A stretch of 10,634 bases of DNA from a bacterium. Lineage in GTDB: Bacteria; UBA9089; CG2-30-40-21; SBAY01. A program made the position numbers and the translations under genes. The notes under the pieces were generated by a model that saw nothing but the letters and a program-made list of their open reading frames with translations, did no database searches and was not told where the DNA came from. Where the stretch lies: contig JBFLYA010000130.1 of the NCBI GenBank assembly GCA_040757115.1, positions 1-10,634 on the forward strand, read 5' to 3'. How positions within the stretch are numbered: position 1 is the first letter of the stretch; the number at the start of each line of letters is the position of its first letter. Below are positions 1 to 9,689 of the stretch, one piece after another.

Positions 1-29
1 CAAGAATAGTCAATGGAGAAATAAATAAT

Positions 30-101
30 CACACAGAGACACAAAGTCACAAAGGAATTGAATAAAACAATAAACCTTTGTGTTCTTTGTGGCTTTGTGT
101 G
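30..101. repeat. Imperfect inverted repeat built of CACAAAG units
   Basis: The left arm (30-55) is made of CACA/ACAAAG units. The right arm (75-101) is its imperfect reverse complement (CCTTTGTG...CTTTGTGTG), around a loop of about 19 bases rich in A and T. It could fold into a long hairpin. The same CTTTGTGTTCTTTGTG wording recurs at about 10313-10330 inside the MITE-like element at the right end, so this may be a dispersed genomic repeat. No coding function is visible in 1-137. Confidence 0.6.
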
Positions 102-112
102 AGAAAATAAAA

Positions 113-136
113 AGGAGATATTTTAGGAGATATTTT
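113..136. repeat. Tandem 12-bp direct repeat (AGGAGATATTTT x2)
   Basis: Two exact head-to-tail copies of AGGAGATATTTT lie immediately before the first attC leader. An AGATATTTTAGGGTCAACC string also introduces the leader of the second site (from about 1060), so the unit probably belongs to the 5' edge of the conserved leader. Confidence 0.6.
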
Positions 137-137
137 A

Positions 138-208
138 GGGTCAACCGTGAATGTGGAATGCACAATAATTCGGTGAGGCAGAGGAAAAGGCAGCGAATTA
201 AAGCTTTT
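138..208 (+). repeat. Conserved pre-attC leader, copy 1
   Basis: First of five near-identical leaders, starting GGGTCAACCG and ending AAAGCTTTT directly against the attC R'' box. This copy lacks 6 bp of the purine-rich GGAAAA tract found in the others. It ends in a half attC (209 to about 276). No open reading frame is shared by the copies. Confidence 0.75.
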
Positions 209-276
209 GTCTAACCCTGCGTTGCAGTTGACGGCGGGGGACTGTGCCGTGGTCAGAGTTTTGTGGTCTCTCAAAG
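209..276 (+). other. Half attC site (left half only)
   Basis: Starts with R'' GTCTAAC (209-215) and continues through the left GC-rich arm and loop exactly like the four standard sites. It stops matching after GGTCTCTCAAAG, and no right arm or R' box follows. About 37 bp of unrelated sequence then leads into a second, complete site at 314. This is probably the scar of a deletion or illegitimate recombination within an older cassette. Confidence 0.7.
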
Positions 277-313
277 AGAAAAATGGGGGACGCACACAAT
301 TATCTAAGAACGA

Positions 314-444
314 TTCTAACAAATCGTTGCAGCGGACGGCGGGAGCTAACTGCTTTTCAAAAGTTTGTAGTTTATCAAAGTTTTGTCTTGCTTATAAAGT
401 TTAGTGGCAATTCTCCCCGCCGCCGCTGAACTCAATCGTTAGGC
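314..444 (+). other. attC recombination site 1 (131 bp)
   Basis: R'' is TTCTAAC (314-320) and R' is GTTAGGC (438-444). The left arm CAGCGG-A-CGGCGGG pairs with CCCGCCG-CCGCTG on the right, leaving one extrahelical A at 336, as in real attC sites. The right half (about 360-444) resembles the divergent site at 2684 more than the standard ones. Recombination would occur at G438/T439, making cassette A start at 439. R'' deviates from RYYYAAC at its first base. Confidence 0.8.
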
Positions 445-568
445 ATCTTGTCAAAGCTGAAGTATACTATGATGGTGGCGACGAGGTTAGCGCATTTTGG
501 ATTTAAACAATTAAGATTTTGAGTCTGTCCAGTATGATTTGTACTGTAGATACGAACGGTGATGAATA

Positions 569-805
569 GTGATAGGATTTGAGATCATTGGTGAAATTAG
601 AAATGTGGAGATAATCGCAACGGGTCAGGGAGTACATATCCGCCGCTATCTGGATCGAACCTATGGCAAGGGACACTGGCGGAAAATGAAAGGTAGAGCA
701 ACTGTGCGATTAATTGATGATACAATCTGTGAAGCCGAGATACACTGGTTTGAAGCACATGGTATAGGTCGTAAGGATTTCAAAGTCAAAAAGGTGATTC
801 GATGA
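569..805 (+). CDS. Conserved hypothetical cassette protein, 78 aa
   Basis: First gene of cassette A. The GTG start at 569 is the first possible in-frame start after an in-frame TGA at 563; a weak GGTGAT lies just upstream. The small basic protein has a core reading YGKGHWRKMKG followed by TVRLIDDTICEAEIHWFEAHGIG. I have the impression of a family of short uncharacterised proteins with a GxWRKxKG...AExHWYEAHGIGRK pattern, but it has no established function that I know of. There is no signal peptide or membrane segment. The stop overlaps the start of the next gene by 4 bp (ATGA), so the two are translationally coupled. A small coupled pair in a cassette fits a toxin-antitoxin or similar two-component unit, but that is inference only. 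Confidence 0.75.
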   Translation: MIGFEIIGEIRNVEIIATGQGVHIRRYLDRTYGKGHWRKMKGRATVRLIDDTICEAEIHWFEAHGIGRKDFKVKKVIR

Positions 806-1050
806 GTACATTTGTAATTTGTATCAACAACGAGAGCAATCCAGCGAGTTTGATTATAGGCAAAGTTTACCAGATTCTGCCAGACGCAGAAGCAAAGGCA
901 CATAACATGTTGCGCATTATTGATGAAGACAAATCCGAGTATGATGGTTATCTTTACCCGGTATCAATGTTCGCACCGATCACTTTGCCAAAGATAGCGG
1001 AGAGGGTATTGATGGCAACAGGTGAGAGAATACCCCTGTTGTCCCACTAA
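802..1050 (+). CDS. Conserved hypothetical cassette protein, 82 aa
   Basis: Second gene of cassette A, coupled to the previous one through an ATGA overlap. It starts MSTFVICINNESNPASL and has the look of a small beta-rich domain: CINN near residues 7-10, GKVYQILPD at 20-28, MLRIIDEDKSEYDGYLYP at about 36-53. I recall similar short proteins of unknown function with the order CINN...Y.VLPD...RIIDE..E.YLYP. There are no catalytic motifs, membrane segments or signal peptide. Its leader and attC follow directly, so cassette A carries just this pair. Function unknown; the coupling suggests it works with the 78-aa product. Confidence 0.78.
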   Translation: MSTFVICINNESNPASLIIGKVYQILPDAEAKAHNMLRIIDEDKSEYDGYLYPVSMFAPITLPKIAERVLMATGERIPLLSH

Positions 1051-1068
1051 GTGCGATAAGATATTTTA

Positions 1069-1145
1069 GGGTCAACCGTCAATGTGAAATGCACAATAAT
1101 TCGGTGAGGCAGAGGAAAAGGAAAAGACAGCGAATCAAAGCTTTT
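1069..1145 (+). repeat. Conserved pre-attC leader, copy 2
   Basis: 77-bp copy with two differences near its 5' end (CGTCAATGTGAAATG instead of CGTGAATGTGGAATG). It begins 18 bp after the stop of the cassette A gene pair and abuts attC 2. Confidence 0.8.
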
Positions 1146-1277
1146 GTCTAACCCTGCGTTGCAGTTGACGGCGGGGGACTGTGCCGTGGTCAGAGTTTTG
1201 TGGTCTCTCAAAGTTTTATCTTGCTATCAAACTTTTGTGGTAATCCTCCCCGCCGCACCTGAACTTTATCGTTAGAC
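1146..1277 (+). other. attC recombination site 2 (132 bp)
   Basis: R'' is GTCTAAC (1146-1152) and R' is GTTAGAC (1271-1277), perfect reverse complements. The arms CAGTTG-A-CGGCGGGG and CCCCGCCG-CACCTG pair around an extra A at 1168. About 80 bp between the arms forms the variable terminal loop, with a secondary CAAAGTTT/AAACTTTTG hairpin. The length is in the range of Vibrio cholerae VCR sites. The crossover point is G1271/T1272. Confidence 0.9.
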
Positions 1278-1296
1278 AGATGAAAAAGAGGTTTAA

Positions 1297-2646
1297 ATGA
1301 AGGCTATATTTAAGATTCTTTTATGGGTGAGTTTCGTCTTACTCATAGGTGGCTGCGCTGGCGGCAGATTACAAATAACAAAAGCCCAAATGCCACTACG
1401 CTCTTTTGAGGATATTCCCCAAAAGGATATTTCAATAGCAAGAGTCAAGCAAGAATTGAGAGAAGGACATTTTGATAGTGTTAAACGAGTGCTGGACGTT
1501 ATCTCAAAAGAAGGATACGAAAATGAGATTGAGATTCATATGTATAGAGGGATATTATATTACTATCAAAACAGGTTACAATCTGCTCTTAATGAATTTG
1601 AAAAGTCCCTAAATCTTCTGGTCCCAACGGTTGAACAAGCTATCCAGAAAGACCTTTATGAAAACGCAGGGTATCTATATTATGACCTCAATGACTATAA
1701 AAAAGCAGCGGTCTATCTTCGCAAATGCAAAGAGTTAGGTGGAGAAGTTGAGGAAGCCGATATTGAATTCTTTGAAAAATTTCAGGGTACTCCTTACCGG
1801 ATTGAGACCCAAGATCAAAGAGCGAACTTAAAGATGGATTACAAAGGAATTCCTATAGTCAAAGGCAGCATTAATGGAAGTAAGGAGCTAAGTTTTATAG
1901 TAGACACAGGAGCGCAGATGACCGTGTTGTCATCAGAGATGGCGAACAAGCTGAAGATAAAACCTCTTGTCTCTGGCAGCAAGGGAGCTGGAGCTGGTGG
2001 CGAATTTTCTGTTGATCTTGGGGTAATCGACTCATTAAGACTTGGTGATGTAATTGTCAGGAATGTCCCTGTTACTATTATTGATTCTAAGGAATTGACA
2101 TTTAAGCTCTTTGGGCTTTTGACAATCTTTAAGATAGATGGGGTAATTGGACTTCCGTTACTAAAACAGTTTGATGTTACCTTTGATTACAAAGGCAAGA
2201 GACTCATCTTAGATATTCCACAGAAGACTGAAGAACCCTCATCCTTTGAAGGCAATTTTTATCTTGTGCGTGATAAGATAATGCTACCCGTAGGCATAAA
2301 TGGCATTGAAGGATTTACATTCATGCTCGATACAGGTGGAGGTGGCGATCATGCTTCTATTACCCCTGAAGGTTTAGAGGAATTAAAGGATCAACAGTTA
2401 AAGATTTCTGAGCAATTAGGTGGAAGTTGGGGTGCTGGCGGTGGAGGAGTAAAGAAGATTAAAGATGTCAAGGATGTCTCCTTGAGAATGTGTGGGTTTG
2501 ATATTCGGAATGTAGATCTGCGTGTAGATAAAGACCCTATAAAAGATAAACTCATCGAGATAGATGGTTTTATTGAGAATATGATATTAGAAAACTTCAA
2601 GGTAAAGATGGATTTTAGAAAGATGCAAATAACATTAGTAGACTAA
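1297..2646 (+). CDS. TPR-like lipoprotein with two retropepsin-like aspartyl protease domains
   Basis: 449-aa single gene of cassette B; AGAGG precedes the ATG by 8 bases. Residues 1-20 are a lipoprotein signal peptide ending in a lipobox (LIGGC, Cys20), so the protein should be anchored in an envelope membrane. Residues 43-150 look like helical TPR-type repeats. From about 178 there is a retropepsin-like (gag-asp/PF13650 type) domain with catalytic FIVDTGA (DTG 203-205) and a later hydrophobic-Gly motif DGVIGLPLL (281-289). A second copy starts near 330 with FMLDTGGGG (DTG 345-347) and ends with DGFIENMIL (423-431), where the usual Gly after the hydrophobic pair is Glu. Each single-domain retropepsin contributes one aspartate, so two tandem domains could form an intramolecular active pair. 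Substrate unknown. It is unusually large for a cassette product. Confidence 0.88.
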   Translation: MKAIFKILLWVSFVLLIGGCAGGRLQITKAQMPLRSFEDIPQKDISIARVKQELREGHFDSVKRVLDVISKEGYENEIEIHMYRGILYYYQNRLQSALNEFEKSLNLLVPTVEQAIQKDLYENAGYLYYDLNDYKKAAVYLRKCKELGGEVEEADIEFFEKFQGTPYRIETQDQRANLKMDYKGIPIVKGSINGSKELSFIVDTGAQMTVLSSEMANKLKIKPLVSGSKGAGAGGEFSVDLGVIDSLRLGDVIVRNVPVTIIDSKELTFKLFGLLTIFKIDGVIGLPLLKQFDVTFDYKGKRLILDIPQKTEEPSSFEGNFYLVRDKIMLPVGINGIEGFTFMLDTGGGGDHASITPEGLEELKDQQLKISEQLGGSWGAGGGGVKKIKDVKDVSLRMCGFDIRNVDLRVDKDPIKDKLIEIDGFIENMILENFKVKMDFRKMQITLVD

Positions 2647-2683
2647 ATTTGAGATGCTAAAGAGAGGTTTAATTTTTTGTTCT

Positions 2684-2815
2684 GTCTAACCCATCGCTGC
2701 ACCTGACTGCGGGGGGCTGTGCCGTAATTAGAGTTTTGTGGTATCCCAAGTTTTTATCTTGTTTACAAAGTTTAGTGGTAATTCTCCTCGCAGCAGGTGA
2801 GCTTTATCGTTAGAT
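2684..2815 (+). other. attC recombination site 3 (132 bp, divergent, no leader)
   Basis: R'' is GTCTAAC (2684-2690) and R' is GTTAGAT (2809-2815). It has the same length and architecture as the standard sites but different arms: CACCTG-A-CTGCGGGG against CCTCGCAG-CAGGTG, with the extra A at 2706. The arm substitutions occur on both sides so that pairing is kept. The conserved leader is absent; only about 37 bp separate the site from the preceding stop codon. Confidence 0.88.
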
Positions 2816-2840
2816 TCAACACTCAGAAAGGAAAGGTATT

Positions 2841-3077
2841 ATGACTGTAACGGTTGAAAAGATTGCAAATGAAGTCAAATTGCTTCAGGAATGGGAGTTG
2901 AACGAGTTTCTGGCCTGGCTTACAGACTACGAGCTTGAACATTTTGACGAATGGGACAAGGAGATTCAACGCGATTCACAGCCGGGTGGACGCTTGCAGG
3001 TCATGCTGGATGGTGTTCGCGATGACATTTCCGCGGGAAGGACTAAACCTCTTGATGAAATCATTAACAACTCCTGA
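2841..3077 (+). CDS. Putative antitoxin of a RelE/ParE-type pair, 78 aa
   Basis: First gene of cassette C; an AAAGGAAAGG stretch precedes the ATG. It is acidic (many E and D), with predicted helices at the N-terminus (residues 1-45) and the hydrophilic C-terminus GRTKPLDEIINNS. It overlaps the downstream toxin gene by 23 bp, which supports coupled translation. I do not recognise a named antitoxin DNA-binding fold (no clear RHH or HTH). The role as antitoxin is inferred from position, size, charge and the partner gene. The C-terminal tail probably wraps and neutralises the toxin, as is common in this class. Confidence 0.75.
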   Translation: MTVTVEKIANEVKLLQEWELNEFLAWLTDYELEHFDEWDKEIQRDSQPGGRLQVMLDGVRDDISAGRTKPLDEIINNS

Positions 3078-3315
3078 TTTCTGGAATTTATACTTTTCTT
3101 TGCCTCCTGAAATCAAATCTCTAGCCAGAAGGATGTATCAATTGTGGAAGAGAAATCCGAGACATCCCTCTCTACACTTTAAGAAAGTTGGTCAGGTATG
3201 GTCTATCAGAGTCGGCGAAGGATTTCGGGCATTGGCCATGAGGGAAAGCGATACTTTCTTCTGGTTCTGGATTGGAAATCATGATGAGTATAAAAGACTT
3301 ATTGGGAAGTTATGA
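3055..3315 (+). CDS. RelE/ParE-superfamily toxin, 86 aa
   Basis: Second gene of cassette C. The frame is open further upstream, but the ATG at 3055 gives the usual toxin N-terminus (MKSLTTPDFWNLYFSLP) and a 23-bp overlap with the antitoxin gene. Features of the RelE/ParE fold: an N-terminal helical pair (about 8-32, PPEIKSLARRMYQLW), then strands in HPSLHFKKVG, VWSIRVGEGFRALAMRE and FFWFWIGNHDEYKRLI. The central Arg residues (R52, R58) and the NHDEYKR end match the pattern of this superfamily. Members either cleave mRNA on the ribosome or poison gyrase; the sequence alone does not decide which. Confidence 0.85.
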   Translation: MKSLTTPDFWNLYFSLPPEIKSLARRMYQLWKRNPRHPSLHFKKVGQVWSIRVGEGFRALAMRESDTFFWFWIGNHDEYKRLIGKL

Positions 3316-3402
3316 TTCGCGGAGGGTTCGCTGATTAAAGGAATGGAGATATCTAAGGAAGTTTTAGAGTCAACGGGAGATATTAGGGGCATGTCATTGA
3401 CA

Positions 3403-3478
3403 GGTCAACCGTGAATGTGGAATGCACAATAATTCGGTGAGGCAGAGGAAAAGGAAAAGACAGCGAATCAAAGCTTTT
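3403..3478 (+). repeat. Conserved pre-attC leader, copy 3
   Basis: 76-bp copy starting GGTCAACCGTG, with the full purine tract. It is preceded by a short stretch (about 3316-3402) that holds broken pieces of the same motif (GGAGATATTAGGGG) and no gene. Confidence 0.8.
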
Positions 3479-3610
3479 GTCTAACCCTGCGTTGCAGTTG
3501 ACGGCGGGGGACTGTGCCGTGGTCAGAGTTTTGTGGTCTCTCAAAGTTTTATCTTGCTATCAAACTTTTGTGGTAATTCTCCCCGCCGCACCTGAACTTT
3601 ATCGTTAGAC
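3479..3610 (+). other. attC recombination site 4 (132 bp)
   Basis: Standard site: R'' GTCTAAC (3479-3485), R' GTTAGAC (3604-3610). Its arms and terminal loop are the same as site 2 apart from a TTCTCC/TCCTCC difference in the loop. It separates the RelE-type pair from the VapBC pair. Confidence 0.9.
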
Positions 3611-3653
3611 AGTGTGATACAATTGTGTCTCAGATTTGCGATTGTAGAAAATT

Positions 3654-3659
3654 AGGAGG
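3654..3659 (+). promoter_or_regulatory. Shine-Dalgarno site deciding the vapB start
   Basis: A consensus AGGAGG sits 7 bases before the ATG at 3667. The frame is open from 3625, but only this start has a ribosome binding site and gives a normal-length antitoxin. Confidence 0.85.
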
Positions 3660-3666
3660 ATGGACT

Positions 3667-3891
3667 ATGTTGACAAAAATGATTGATGTGCATGAAGTTC
3701 AATCTCATTTGCAAGGGTTGTTATCCCAAGTACTGACAGGTATGGAACTTATCTTTACGGACGGAGATAAACCAGTTGCTCGTCTTGTACCAGTTGCTGC
3801 ACGAGTGGCAGGATTACACGCAGGAGCAATTTGGACAAGCATGGATTTTGATGAGCCTTTACCTGAAGAATTTTGGATGGGAAATATATGA
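3667..3891 (+). CDS. vapB: VapB antitoxin, Phd/YefM type (74 aa)
   Basis: Antitoxin of cassette D. The N-terminal half (MLTKMIDVHEVQSHLQGLL, then GDKPVARLVPV at about 48-58) has the Phd/YefM layout: a DNA-binding dimerisation domain that represses its own operon. The C-terminal tail GAIWTSMDFDEPLPEEF (about 54-71) is the toxin-binding segment commonly seen in antitoxins paired with this VapC subgroup. The stop overlaps the toxin start in ATGA, so the pair is translationally coupled. Autoregulation by the VapBC complex is expected from the family. The operator would have to lie in the roughly 56 bp between attC 4 and the start, but I see no clear palindrome there. Confidence 0.9.
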   Translation: MLTKMIDVHEVQSHLQGLLSQVLTGMELIFTDGDKPVARLVPVAARVAGLHAGAIWTSMDFDEPLPEEFWMGNI

Positions 3892-4274
3892 AATTGCTCT
3901 TAGATACACACACTTTCATCTGGTGGGATAGTGAGCCAACAAAACTTTCGGTACAAGTTCTTGCATTATGCCAGAACCGAGAAAATATGTTGCTGTTAAG
4001 CGTCGCCAGCATCTGGGAAATGCAAATCAAACTTCAATTAGGGAAATTGAAGTTTTCAGTGCCTTTAAAAGAAATCATCGAGACTCAGCAACAGACAAAC
4101 AATGTTAAAGTGTTACCTGTTACCTTGCCACATGTGTTGGCAGTGGAGAAATTGCCTGTCTATCATAAAGACCCATTTGATCGTCTCCTGATTGCTCAAG
4201 CTACGGTTGAAGAAGCAGTGCTCGTTACAGGGGACCCGATACTTACCAATTATCCAGTGAAAGTGGTGTGGTAA
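3888..4274 (+). CDS. vapC: VapC toxin, PIN-domain ribonuclease (128 aa)
   Basis: The start at ATG 3888 overlaps the vapB stop by 4 bp. An in-frame TTG further upstream would lie inside vapB and is less likely. The acidic PIN-domain residues are all present: Asp6 in LLLDTHTFIWW, Glu44 in SIWEMQIK, Asp95/Asp98 in HKDPFDRLLIAQA, and Asp116 in VTGDP. Together they bind the divalent metal for endoribonuclease action. VapC toxins typically cut tRNA or rRNA and stop translation; the exact target cannot be read from sequence. Length is normal for the family. The intact active site suggests a working toxin, so losing this cassette could kill the cell or stop growth. Confidence 0.93.
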   Translation: MKLLLDTHTFIWWDSEPTKLSVQVLALCQNRENMLLLSVASIWEMQIKLQLGKLKFSVPLKEIIETQQQTNNVKVLPVTLPHVLAVEKLPVYHKDPFDRLLIAQATVEEAVLVTGDPILTNYPVKVVW

Positions 4275-4311
4275 TTGTGTAAAAACTAAATAGAGAATTG
4301 AAGTATTAGGA

Positions 4312-4389
4312 GGGTCAAACCGTGAATGTGGAATGCACAATAATTTGGTGAGGCAGAGGAAAAGGAAAAGACAGCGAATCAGAGCTTTT
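4312..4389 (+). repeat. Conserved pre-attC leader, copy 4
   Basis: 78-bp copy starting GGGTCAAACCG, with AATTTGG in place of AATTCGG and AGAGC in place of AAAGC near its end. It begins about 37 bp after the vapC stop. Confidence 0.8.
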
Positions 4390-4521
4390 GTCTAACCCTG
4401 CGTTGCAGTTGACGGCGGGGGACTGTGCCGTGGTCAGAGTTTTGTGGTCTCTCAAAGTTTTATCTTGCTATCAAACTTTTGTGGTAATTCTCCCCACCGC
4501 ACCTGAACTTTATCGTTAGCC
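4390..4521 (+). other. attC recombination site 5 (132 bp)
   Basis: R'' is GTCTAAC (4390-4396) and R' is GTTAGCC (4515-4521). Identical in layout to the standard site except for a G-to-A change at 4496 (CCCCACCG) that breaks one arm pair. R' carries GCC rather than GAC, so this junction has a non-matching R''/R' pair, as expected when a cassette of different origin was inserted downstream. Confidence 0.88.
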
Positions 4522-4551
4522 ACAAACTGCAATTAGAAAGAGAGGTTAAAT

Positions 4552-4812
4552 ATGCCAGAGATTAGTCGATTTTATGGTATAATCATTGGGATGTTTTATG
4601 ATGATCATAATCCTCCTCATTTCCATGCTCGGTACGGAAAAGATAAGGCAGCTGTGGAAATCACTACTTTGCGGGTGTTGGAAGGGAAAATTCCTCCCCG
4701 ATCATTAGGATTAGTGGTCGAATGGGCATCACAACACCAAGAAGAACTGTTACAGGATTGGGAGTTGGCCAAAAACAATCAGCCCCCCAAAAAGATTATC
4801 CCTTTAGATTAA
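4552..4812 (+). CDS. DUF4160 family protein, 86 aa
   Basis: First gene of cassette E, with AGAGG before the ATG. It has the hallmarks of DUF4160: MPEISRFYGIIIGMFYDDHNPPHFHARYG at the N-terminus, including the conserved DHNPPHFHARYG motif at about 18-29, then a helix ending in WELAKNNQPPKKI (about 70-82). The conserved His/Asp cluster suggests metal binding or catalysis, but no activity is established. DUF4160 genes are very often found next to DUF2442 genes, as here with a 13-bp gap, and the pair has been proposed to act as a toxin-antitoxin-like module. That proposed role is inference. Confidence 0.88.
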   Translation: MPEISRFYGIIIGMFYDDHNPPHFHARYGKDKAAVEITTLRVLEGKIPPRSLGLVVEWASQHQEELLQDWELAKNNQPPKKIIPLD

Positions 4813-4825
4813 GTGGAGGTTTTCA

Positions 4826-5092
4826 ATGATTCATGATGTTGTTTCAGCGGTTTATAAAGGCGGGTACAAGATAAAGTTAACTTTTGATGATGGGAAAAAT
4901 GGAGTTGTTGATTTTGCAAAATACTTGACGGCAGGTGGAGTCTTCACGAAATTCAAGGATGTTGAATTCTTCAAGAACTTCACAGTGAATGAAGAGTTGG
5001 GTGTCATCACCTGGAATAATGAGGTAGATGTTGCACCGGAAACACTTTATTCTGAAGCTACAGGGTCTTCTTTGCCAAGATGGATGCAATAA
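4826..5092 (+). CDS. DUF2442 family protein, 88 aa
   Basis: Second gene of cassette E, with TGGAGG 8 bases before the ATG. It has the DUF2442 pattern: MIHDVVSAVYKGGYKIKLTFDDG (strand-rich N-terminus), VDFAKYLTAGGVFTKFKD, FFKNFTVNEELGVITWNNEVDVAPETLY (central, with the conserved GVITWNNEVDVAPETLY segment at about 60-76). No membrane segment. It is probably co-transcribed with the DUF4160 gene and may be its partner or antidote. The stop lies about 18 bp before the next leader. Confidence 0.88.
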   Translation: MIHDVVSAVYKGGYKIKLTFDDGKNGVVDFAKYLTAGGVFTKFKDVEFFKNFTVNEELGVITWNNEVDVAPETLYSEATGSSLPRWMQ

Positions 5093-5110
5093 CTATAATA
5101 GGGAGTATTA

Positions 5111-5188
5111 GGGTCAAACCGTGAATGTGGAATGCACAATAATTCGGTGAGGCAGAGGAAAAGGAAAAGACAGCGAATCAGAGCTTTT
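5111..5188 (+). repeat. Conserved pre-attC leader, copy 5
   Basis: 78-bp copy starting GGGTCAAACCG. It shares the extra A and the late AGAGC variant with copy 4, which suggests these two neighbours arose from each other or were homogenised. Confidence 0.8.
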
Positions 5189-5320
5189 GTCTAACCCTGC
5201 GTTGCAGTTGACGGCGGGGGACTGTGCCGTGGTCAGAGTTTTGTGGTCTCTCAAAGTTTTATCTTGCTATCAAACTTTTGTGGTAATTCTCCCCGCCGCA
5301 CCTGAACTTTATCGTTAGAC
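5189..5320 (+). other. attC recombination site 6 (132 bp)
   Basis: R'' is GTCTAAC (5189-5195) and R' is GTTAGAC (5314-5320). The arms and loop are the standard type and match site 4 throughout. It marks the start of the fused F+G cassette. Confidence 0.9.
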
Positions 5321-5349
5321 TAACCACAAAAAAGGTAGAATTACACAAA

Positions 5350-5835
5350 ATGAAAAGATACATTTTTATTGCCTTAATATTAATATTTATTTTATGGGCG
5401 ATAGGTGGATTAGCTGTATGGTTATTTTTACCAAATTGGTCCATTCGTGGTACCTTCGGTGATATGTTTGGAGCTATCAATTCTCTTTTTTCTGGATTAG
5501 CGTTAGCTGGAGTGATTATTGCAATACTTCTCCAGAAAACTGAACTTGAACTGCAAAGACACGAATTAGAAATGACCAGAGAAGAACTTCACCGTGCCGC
5601 TGAGGCTCAGGAAAAATCGCAACAAGCACTTAAGCAACAGGTAGAGAATCAAAAACTTTTGGCTCAACTTGAATCCATTAATGCACTGCTTGCTTCTTAT
5701 GGTGATCAAATTGAGGGAATGAAGGGAAATAGTACAGTCGTAATGACACTAAAAGAACAGTGTGAAAAGAAGATAAATAAGTTGCGTGAATCTTTGGAAA
5801 AAGTACTTTCTGACGCAGGGCTAAATTTAGAATAG
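5350..5835 (+). CDS. Membrane-anchored coiled-coil protein, 161 aa
   Basis: Gene of cassette F, with AAAGGT before the ATG. There are two membrane segments: about residues 4-30 and about 44-62, the latter following GTFGDMFGAINSLFSGLA. Then comes a long charged helix (about 63-155) rich in E, Q, K and L with heptad spacing, likely a coiled coil facing the cytoplasm. The FGDMFGAxNxLFSGLAxAGxxxAxxLQxxELELQRxEL wording recurs in uncharacterised proteins and in the N-terminal anchor of putative abortive-infection proteins (putAbiC-type). That makes an anti-phage membrane function conceivable, but no effector domain is present here and this is only a hypothesis. The attC after this gene is decayed. 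Confidence 0.8.
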   Translation: MKRYIFIALILIFILWAIGGLAVWLFLPNWSIRGTFGDMFGAINSLFSGLALAGVIIAILLQKTELELQRHELEMTREELHRAAEAQEKSQQALKQQVENQKLLAQLESINALLASYGDQIEGMKGNSTVVMTLKEQCEKKINKLRESLEKVLSDAGLNLE

Positions 5836-5911
5836 AAACTTAGAGAAGAATTGGAGTCATCTCCCGAATTGAGAATTAACGCAAGCAGGAAGAAAAGAGA
5901 ATTGCAAAACA

Positions 5912-6000
5912 AAGTTTTTGTCTAATCCAGCGATGTTCCCTGATTTTTATGAGAGGAGGCTCTGACTTGCTTCGCGTGCCCGTGAGTTTTGTCATTATGA
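5912..6000 (+). other. Decayed attC site
   Basis: GTTTTTGTCTAATCCAGCGATG (from 5913) is a mutated copy of the start of the standard site, with R'' GTCTAAT instead of GTCTAAC. A later CGTGAGTTTTGT resembles its loop. Neither a GC-rich right arm nor a GTTRRRY box follows before hicA, so it should not recombine. The flanking genes therefore probably move as one cassette. Confidence 0.55.
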
Positions 6001-6023
6001 CCAAATGATGTATAGGAGACTAA

Positions 6024-6209
6024 ATGAAATTCAGTGAACTGGTTAGATTATTAGAAGAAAATGGATTTAGAATTGTGAAAGAAAAAGGCTCAATAAGATA
6101 CTATGGAAAGACTGGGTGGAATAAAATGGTTCGACTTGATTACCACGGATCAAAGGAAGTTCCTACAGGCACTTGCAATAGTATCCTAAAGGCTGCAGGA
6201 ATTAAATGA
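6024..6209 (+). CDS. hicA: HicA-family toxin, 61 aa
   Basis: GGAG precedes the ATG. It has the double-stranded-RNA-binding-like HicA fold: MKFSELVRLLEENGFRIVKEKGS (helix and strand), VRLDYHGSKEVPTGTCNSILKAAGIK (strand then C-terminal helix). HicA toxins cleave mRNA and are neutralised by HicB. The catalytic His usually found as GSHH or GSHR is Ile here (KGSIRYYGK, about residues 21-29), while a His remains in DYHGSKEVPTG. This may be a subfamily with another active-site layout or a weakened toxin. It is followed after 16 bp by hicB, toxin first, as is normal for hicAB. Confidence 0.87.
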   Translation: MKFSELVRLLEENGFRIVKEKGSIRYYGKTGWNKMVRLDYHGSKEVPTGTCNSILKAAGIK

Positions 6210-6225
6210 CCATAAGGAGGATAAG

Positions 6226-6477
6226 ATGATTGAATTACCATATTCATTAGTAATTGAAGCTACGGAAGAACCAGACTATTTTGGTTTCTATTCCCTGGAT
6301 TTGGAAGGCTTTTCAGGCATAGGACATTCTGTAGAAGATTGTTTGTACCAGGCTAAGTGGGGAATGAAAGAACATGTTGCTTTACTAAGGGAACAAAGGA
6401 TTCCAGTCCCTCCTGAGAACCCAAAAGCTAAGATTATTATTCAGAATGAAAGAAAATTAGATGTGGCAATGGTCTAA
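6226..6477 (+). CDS. hicB: HicB-family antitoxin, 83 aa
   Basis: AAGGAGG precedes the ATG. The N-terminal domain is the partial RNase H-like HicB fold (YSLVIEATEEPDYFGFYSLDLEGFSGIGHSVEDCLYQAKWGMKEHVALLREQ), with the typical YSLDLEGFSGxGxSVEDC run. The short tail IPVPPENPKAKIII follows, and no separate C-terminal HTH or ribbon-helix-helix domain is present, as in short HicB proteins. It should bind and block HicA. Its stop codon TAA (6475-6477) lies inside the R'' box GTCTAAC of the next attC, so the coding end and the recombination site are merged. Confidence 0.88.
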   Translation: MIELPYSLVIEATEEPDYFGFYSLDLEGFSGIGHSVEDCLYQAKWGMKEHVALLREQRIPVPPENPKAKIIIQNERKLDVAMV

Positions 6478-6531
6478 CAAATCGCTGAAGCTGACGGTGC
6501 TTCGCACCGCAGCTTAGCTTTATCGTTAGAC
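6472..6531 (+). other. attC recombination site 8 (60 bp, short type)
   Basis: R'' is GTCTAAC (6472-6478) and R' is GTTAGAC (6525-6531). The arms form an almost perfect hairpin: AAGCTG-A-CGGTGC, loop TTC, GCACCG-CAGCTT, with a single extrahelical A at 6494. This is the compact layout typical of mobile integron cassettes and differs strongly from the 132-bp type next door. It is the last recognisable attC in the window. Confidence 0.93.
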
Positions 6532-8989: not shown

Positions 8990-9618
8990 CTAAAATCTTC
9001 TATACAAACCAATGACTTTCCCCGCAATCTTTATATCCTCTGCAGATACCAGTATTGGTTCCATCTTAGAATTCGCTGGCTCTAATCTCACCAATGATGT
9101 GCTTTCACGATAATAATATTTCACTGTAGCATCTCCTCCCACAAGTGCTACAACTATATCCCCATTATCGGCTATTTTTTGCCTTCTAACAATCACATAA
9201 TCCCCTGACAAAATCCCTGCTTCAATCATACTATTCCCTTCTACCTTAAGTGCAAAACACTTAGTATTGCTGACTAAATCTTTACCTAAGATAATCTCAC
9301 CCTCAATATTCTCCAAAGCCAGTAATGGTAGCCCTGTCTGAATCCTTCCTACTTTTGGAACCTTCACATACTCATCTTCTAATCTCTGTCTTTTATGCTC
9401 AACCAACAATTCTATAGCCCTGGGTTTGGTTGGGACCTTCCTCAGATAGCTTTTCTCTTGTAACGACTTGAGATGGGCAAAAGGTGCACAAGGAGATTTT
9501 AGTCCCAAATGACTCTGTATCTCCCTTACCGTAGGTGGGTAACCACATCTCTGGATATTCTCCAGACAAAAGTCTAATACCTGTTGTTGTTTTTCGGTTA
9601 ATTTAATTCCTTTGGCAT
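8990..9618 (-). CDS. lexA: LexA repressor, reading frame broken near the start
   Basis: SOS repressor and autoprotease. Restored, it would be about 209 aa: helix-turn-helix at 7-70 (LTEKQQQVLDFC..., YPPTVREIQSHLGLKSP), linker, and S24 peptidase domain with Ser130 (EGNSMIEAG) and Lys167 (DATVKYYY). The natural start is the ATG at 9618, with GGAGG 8 bases upstream, but that frame stops after 8 codons. The LexA frame lacks any ATG, GTG or TTG until codon 38 (TTG 9508), which would lack most of the HTH. One extra A in the run CCAAAGG at about 9610-9615 would join the two exactly (MPKGIKLTEK). So this is a recent frameshift, a sequencing error or slippage. The cleavage site, normally Ala-Gly, is Thr95-Gly96 (GRIQTGLPLLALE). 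Transcription is probably autoregulated through the SOS box upstream. Confidence 0.9.
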
Positions 9619-9641: not shown

Positions 9642-9653
9642 ATACATATGTTC
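9642..9653 (-). promoter_or_regulatory. SOS box (LexA operator) in front of lexA
   Basis: Reads GAACATATGTAT on the minus strand, a near match to the Gram-positive type SOS box GAAC-N4-GTTC with one half-site imperfect. It lies just downstream of the -10 box, around the likely transcription start, where bound LexA would block transcription. A perfect 12-bp palindrome, TTCTAATTAGAA (9651-9662), overlaps its edge. Confidence 0.7.
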
Positions 9654-9660
9654 TAATTAG

Positions 9661-9689
9661 AATATACCATATAATCTTCAGAATGTCAA
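9661..9689 (-). promoter_or_regulatory. lexA promoter
   Basis: On the minus strand: -35 TTGACA (9689-9684), 17-bp spacer, -10 TATATT (9666-9661). Both boxes are near consensus. Transcription would begin at about 9654-9655, placing the SOS box at +1 to +13 or so. Confidence 0.8.

Follow-up and report, generated by a model that had tools for sequence, protein, structure and literature searches.

The window analysed here, a stretch of 10,634 nucleotides corresponding to contig C130 of a 4.3-Mb bacterial genome in 462 contigs (G000), carries an integron array, in which repeated attC sites with an inverted R''...R' core are separated by different genes. The integron integrase lies on another contig (G000:C39), scores above the TIGR02249 cut-off and has an intact frame, and an attI-like site is also present in the genome. 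The array resembles the sedentary chromosomal integrons of the Vibrio type in its cassettes, which include many toxin-antitoxin genes, in the R''/L''/L'/R' organization of attC, and in the presence of the integrase and of an attI-like site. Different from those integrons, where standard cassettes conserve attC alone, a conserved leader made of two modules is found here upstream of R''.

All the features of the window described below lie on the forward (+) strand. The first-pass annotation had reported a leader of 71 to 78 bp at positions 138, 1069, 3403, 4312 and 5111, abutting R'' in every case, and both repeat search and BLAST confirmed it, with a length of 70 to 78 nt. These type A leaders (138 to 208, 1069 to 1145, 3403 to 3478, 4312 to 4389, and 5111 to 5188) are, as had been noticed, nearly identical, with 91 to 100% identity to the reference copy at 3403, and the number of GGAAAA units varies, with one unit in the leader of the first site, which is the 91% copy, and two in the others. 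The type-A attC sites that follow are located at 1146 to 1275 (99% identical), 3479 to 3608 (the reference copy), 4390 to 4519, and 5189 to 5318, while the first leader is followed by a truncated type-A attC, of which the first 68 nt are present with 100% identity (209 to 276). With the leader and attC at 3403 as the query, BLAST placed the leaders at 139 to 208, 1070 to 1145, 3403 to 3478, 4313 to 4389, and 5112 to 5188; one further G is part of most copies. On the 5' side, conservation reaches about 10 nt beyond the leader as described, with GGAGATATTA ahead of GGGTC.

In the first site, the truncated attC is followed by another leader type, namely, the type D REP-type end GGGGGACGCACACAATTATCT (284 to 305), which also occurs upstream of the gene for a REP-associated tyrosine transposase (RAYT) at locus L102, and then by a second long attC of another subtype (314 to 442), the type D end before it being devoid of the purine tract. 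At the REP head of the same site, a tandem iteration of GGAGATATTTTA (two copies, 114 to 137) could be read from the sequence, and similar iterations are present at other REP junctions. An additional partial REP head, GGGAGATATTAGGGGCA, was read upstream of the leader at 3403 (3376 to 3392). The degenerate site whose R'' lies at 5920 is also preceded by a leader, a decayed one of type B (5851 to 5919), in which, by comparison with other B leaders, TTGGAGTCATCTCCCGAATTGAGAATTAAC is followed by the purine tract. The long attC at 2684 to 2813 and the short attC at 6472 to 6529 have no leader, in agreement with the earlier description.

The leader is a composite of a distal REP-type end and a proximal module bound to attC. 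The distal 30 to 40 nt, approximately, correspond to the REP-type end GGAG-N6-GGGTCARACCNTGAAT of a family of dispersed palindromic repeats, and the proximal 40 nt or so, containing the purine tract, GACRGCGnA and CTTTT, were found only directly before R''. In an alignment of 17 leaders (A1), GGGTCAnACCTTGAATnnnGAATTAAC is followed by a middle part of variable length and then by GCnAGnnAGAAGAAAAGAAAAAGACGGCGGAGTGnAGCTTTT before TCTAACC; from the reading of this alignment, a coding remnant was rejected because the open frame is not the same across leader types. The search for AAAGACGGCGGAGTG, with up to three mismatches in 675 kb, returned 44 matches with TAAC or a similar sequence behind them, 42 of which carry the purine tract (the exceptions are L034:508 and L106:2707), and 11 matches at other places, which appear to be fortuitous. 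The reversed-sequence control gave 93 matches, and this 15-mer is weak by itself, so the argument rests on its position and context. The TGTG-N5-CACA element described as a mini-hairpin is present as a sequence feature, but as a structure it does not hold, since the folding is weak: with DNA parameters, the leader alone gave -3.8 kcal/mol for the bottom strand and -7.0 kcal/mol for the top strand. Furthermore, folding of the leader against the attC arms revealed no consistent pairing.

The REP core GGGTCARACCNYGAWW occurs 61 times in G000, 39 times in the sister species G001, 16 times in G002, and 10 times in G003, and 0 to 13 times per genome in the rest of the order, versus 0 (once 1) in the reversed control. 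Many of these matches form inverted pairs, 44 bp apart, and REPIN-like palindromic repeats of about 60 bp are found, such as TTGGGGTCAGACCGTGAATGTTGAATGTAAAAGGAACTGCTTTCTACATTCAAGGTCTGACCCTAAT (L110); the type-A arm itself is present in a free repeat at L120:853. Genes for Y1 transposases (PF01797) number six in G000 and five in G001, and REP-associated tyrosine transposase is the best NCBIfam family for four of the proteins (NF047646; E values from 1.5e-8 to 5.9e-19, with scores that fall short of the curated cut-off), which indicates the presence of a transposase of this type in the genome. Three of the four leader end types match the sequence directly upstream of RAYT genes of the same genus. 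In particular, type B corresponds to the end GGGGTCAGACCTCGAAAGCAGAATTAACT of L105 and L108, inverted on both sides of L108; type C corresponds to the end GGGGACACAATACT of L106 and L101, iterated on both sides of L101; and type D corresponds to the end GGGGACGCACACAATTATCT of L102. The leader end is thus identical in type to the ends borne by RAYT genes, with type B leaders at L042, L060, and loci of G002, type C leaders at L043, L068, and L062, and type D in the window (284 to 305). The search revealed no RAYT gene whose end is exactly of type A; this type matches free REPINs only.

These repeats share with the described RAYT/REP systems and REPINs the dispersed inverted pairs, the short end, and a GGAG/GTAG-like head (PMC2817692, PMC3116915, PMC8266576), as well as transposase genes bearing the same ends, inverted on both sides in L108. 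However, the ends observed here differ from the GC-rich hairpins of gammaproteobacterial REPs, and in the leader no second end follows the one joined to attC. According to the first-pass annotation, a leader common without attC would have spoken against its view of the leader; this turned out to be true of the distal half only, whose frequency away from attC reveals its nature as a REP.

The linkage of the leader to attC was evaluated on 141 attC sites, classed after a core filter, the detector background before the filter being 43 matches on the reversed G000 sequence. The pairing with this type of attC, which the first-pass annotation had proposed to verify, stands insofar as the full leader accompanies type-A attC (GTCTAACCCTG) in 51 of 53 evaluable cases, but it is not confined to type A, and exclusivity was rejected because related leaders precede other long and some short attC sites. 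Among the 61 other long attC sites of G000 and G001, 14 have both parts of the leader and 38 have neither, the proximal part occurs alone at 7 and the REP part alone at 2; the REP part was found for 1 of 20 short attC sites, and the remaining 19 lack any part. Two more short attC sites with the proximal module, at L062:588 and L097:4651, were missed by the detector. Leaderless cassettes are compact, with the gene end close to R''.

The leader with its attC gave at least 40 strong matches in G000 (E values of about 1e-91 to 1e-105), and 29 leader matches were obtained in G001, numbers well above those expected by chance. A recent local tandem duplication, envisaged in the first-pass annotation as the finding that would undermine its proposal, was rejected, since the leader recurs on many contigs and in genomes of other genera. 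In the fetched contigs, 75 leader matches have at least 60 nt of upstream sequence: 24 of them are from a single gene-less cassette (E) that carries the palindrome CACAGAGACACAAAG, and the other 51 represent 50 distinct upstream contexts. It follows that one 3' end is shared behind some fifty unrelated sequences.

The order includes at least five further genomes, from two families, in which the same two-part leader stands before attC sites that differ in sequence. It precedes long attC sites in G002 (L144, L147, L150, and L151), in G003 (L133), and in G006, from another family (L140), and it precedes a TAACAAGAAAAAT-type site in G004 and G005 (L134 and L143), the site being short in G005; several attC sites of G002 have no leader. 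The composite 3' end, with its RAYT-type REP head, is of order-wide age, has been fused repeatedly to unrelated sequences, and has a single orientation. The leader pattern was absent from the named genomes searched and the leader with attC from the plasmids searched, sets from which records near the window may be left out, and none of 80 loci around related integrases in other phyla had three or more attC-like sites by the detector used.

Of the 137 evaluable attC sites, 50 have a forward REP arm within 130 nt and none has a truly inverted one, the frequency in random windows being 1.9% and 1.8%. The lone match to an inverted arm near attC is the palindromic GGGTCTGACC. Tandem iteration, comprising the flank and the first bases of the arm, was observed for 8 of 66 attC-linked arms and 14 of 124 free arms, compared to 91 of 20,000 random positions (0.45%). 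The element end ...TAAAAGTATTATACCA occupies the identical place in the REP at three loci, namely, the RAYT locus L108, the leader at L047:6699, and a leader-like stretch at L038:16118, and a second element end, CAACACTCACT, is found within the leader of L065 and in free REPs. Moreover, five leaders begin in or at the end of a truncated older attC (L039:15462, L037:1130, L037:9157, L033:2470, and L036:10769), a type-B REP start is followed by a type-A leader in L035 and L036, and the leader at L037:9813 comes directly after the R'-like TTATCGTTAG.

The REP head is the fusion point in most of the roughly 50 contexts. In G001, a mazEF-like cassette has the unit directly behind CATCCCAAA, and the same holds for a diverged paralogue of G000 (L038), but a 98%-identical copy of G000 (C5) is uninterrupted at that point and has a unit further downstream. 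This comparison, a single one that covers the left junction only, fits an attachment at the REP head, and it could also reflect a deletion in G001.

In its workings, the feature resembles an integron cassette end that bears a handle of transposon origin; we do not class it as a RAYT element, since no unit bounded by two inverted REP ends was found when an inverted end was searched for downstream of attC. The first-pass suggestion that the leader may belong to an extended mobile unit is supported in that the leader is repeated as a unit in fixed association with attC and its distal half represents one end of a mobile repeat of the RAYT type, and the earlier interpretation as a whole is partly supported. 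The cassette ends, at its 3' side, in a RAYT-element REP-type end, a short purine-rich spacer (GACRGCGnA...CTTTT), and attC, and the REP end would serve at cassette birth as the handle for attaching attC behind a new gene, on its 3' side. The joining might occur by strand transfer at the REP, carried out in trans by a RAYT transposase, an HUH enzyme by which folded single-stranded REP DNA is cut and joined; single-stranded REPs are cut and joined in vitro by TnpA-REP (PMC8266576). Alternatively, the REP end might recombine with a REP already present behind a gene, a route comparable to that proposed for group IIC-attC introns (PMC7923331). The integron integrase would then act at attC, so that the gene becomes a cassette in which REP and spacer are the footprint left in its tail, and genes that were not joined in this manner would have compact, leaderless ends.

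We regard it as an evenly balanced matter whether the REP end serves as such a handle by either route. The stronger proposal, that the RAYT enzyme joins the REP end and attC to genes via single-stranded DNA and thereby drives cassette birth in the order, appears rather unlikely. No right-hand, inverted REP end was found after attC, so that the element is not observed in a complete form with two ends, and the identity of about 98% together with the hybrid attC sites implies that plain duplication and conversion can account for much of the spread now observed. The RAYT scores under the curated threshold and the failure to find a RAYT gene bearing the type-A end also count against the REP end as a handle.

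The main rival is a passive origin, since homogenisation clearly acts: one ancestral REP insertion between a gene and attC would have produced a leader that hitchhikes with no role in joining and spreads by cassette duplication, deletion fusions within the array, and gene conversion, the last having been proposed for the homogeneous attC sites of Vibrio (PMC1382264). Type-A copies that are about 98% identical in two species, a gene-less cassette in 24 copies, hybrid attC sites mixing subtypes, and leaders fused to truncated older attC sites all agree with it. However, the same proximal module is preceded by at least four REP end types, all in one orientation, fusion occurs at the REP head in most contexts, and the leader is also found before unrelated short attC sites in another family, which leaves a passive origin as a reasonable possibility, although short of a probable one.

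It seems improbable that the proximal module is instead a selected, functional extension of attC, making a bend or contacting a host factor or the integrase, with the REP end as incidental. The distance between the module and R'' is fixed, the module is found nowhere else, and its identity between genera (0.70 to 0.89) is similar to that of attC (0.77 to 0.85), so that it is either about as constrained as attC or homogenised with it. Against such an extension, the module is absent from 38 of the 61 other long attC sites and from nearly all the short ones of the same genomes, attC sites lacking it also occur in the related integron of G002, and no structure is predicted for it. An accessory integrase site, one of the first-pass suggestions, is possible for the proximal half.

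Should RAYT-driven joining be true, it would represent a natural, footprint-leaving route by which attC is attached to genes, and the leader hints at a way in which ordinary genes may turn into mobile integron cassettes. The mechanisms by which novel cassettes form have been listed among outstanding questions (PMC8618304), and a mechanism of cassette genesis native to the species has been mentioned (PMC8352920). Integrons and RAYT/REP systems, which both act on folded single-stranded DNA and have been compared in mechanism (PMC8266576), are here physically joined; our literature search found no paper treating integrons, attC, and REP-associated tyrosine transposases together. An order-wide footprint tying attC to the repeat of a single-strand transposase makes the acquisition of attC by genes testable.

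A role of the leader as a terminator, or as a promoter for the next gene or the opposite strand, is very improbable: a TTTT run lies ahead of R'' and a weak minus-strand promoter-like match (9/12) overlaps 3380 to 3408, but there are 13 promoter-like matches versus 14.6 in shuffles, and no terminator-like site, that is, a GC-rich hairpin with a T run, occurs within leaders, whose folding energies are given above, so that neither the terminator nor the antisense promoter suggested at first was retained. A structured RNA was rejected as well, since no Rfam family matches the leader. The gene-less cassette E recalls the Vibrionaceae, where cassettes without genes are common; different from those, for which promoter activity was shown (PMC11014356), no promoter signal is found in the leader.

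Mobile elements tied to attC include both group IIC-attC introns and IS1111-attC elements, and the latter insert into attC. Group IIC-attC introns also insert into attC, and a contribution to the building of cassettes has been proposed for them (PMC7923331), whereas the REP end described here is upstream of attC and travels with it. That introns inserting at attC and at terminators joined attC to genes, as in the published model, is hardly credible for the leaders of G000 and G001, at whose junctions no intron remnant was observed and the sequence is that of a REP; intron-like 3' ends were observed in G002, within a leader (L135) and within an attC (L153).

Besides the gene cassettes, we observed a repeated gene-less cassette, in which the CACAGAGACACAAAG palindrome is combined with the leader, at window 27-137 and at about 24 further loci (e.g., L051:225 and L034:5044). 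In L051, this leader-bearing form is the first cassette, located at the attI-like site GTGTATAATAACTTGTTAGAC, while a leaderless form, associated with a different attC, is found at L071:4101 and L056:9477. Furthermore, several attC sites are hybrids, in which one subtype supplies the 5' part and another the 3' part, or which continue into a second site (L096:1473-1601, L043:2115, L037:2194, and window 209-442), a structure that points to recombination within attC.

Two element ends occupy fixed positions within the REP arms, the distal halves of leaders and their dispersed counterparts (L038:16118, L047:6722, L108:1373, L065:10523, and L038:18852), as if the REPs were the target of the corresponding elements. 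In the sister species G001, a MITE bounded by TAAGCGTTCAG and CTGAACGCTTA lies inside the leader, at leader nt 55 to 63 (L069:8915-9135 and L069:10715-10960), and the copy at L069:10715 lies between two copies of AAGACAGCG, a 9-bp duplication. In G002, a further genome of the same order, group II intron-like 3' ends of the domain V type occur directly within the REP arm of a leader (L135:20-95) and within an attC (L153:1380-1480).

As for the genes, toxin-antitoxin genes abound among the cassettes of window 2841-6477 (ParE-like, PIN, DUF4160/DUF2442, and HicA), and the cassette gene at window 1297-2646 encodes a lipoprotein-like protein of 449 amino acids with TPR and retropepsin-type aspartyl protease domains. 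The source genome, G000, contains several broken or split integron-integrase genes (contigs C30, C63, C118, C324, and C114) and one intact copy on contig C39, the product of which is longer at its N-terminus than the TIGR02249 model by about 150 residues. Finally, a LexA-like gene is located on the minus strand of the window (8990-9508), and the palindrome TTCTAATTAGAA in its upstream region (9648-9663) is a possible SOS operator.
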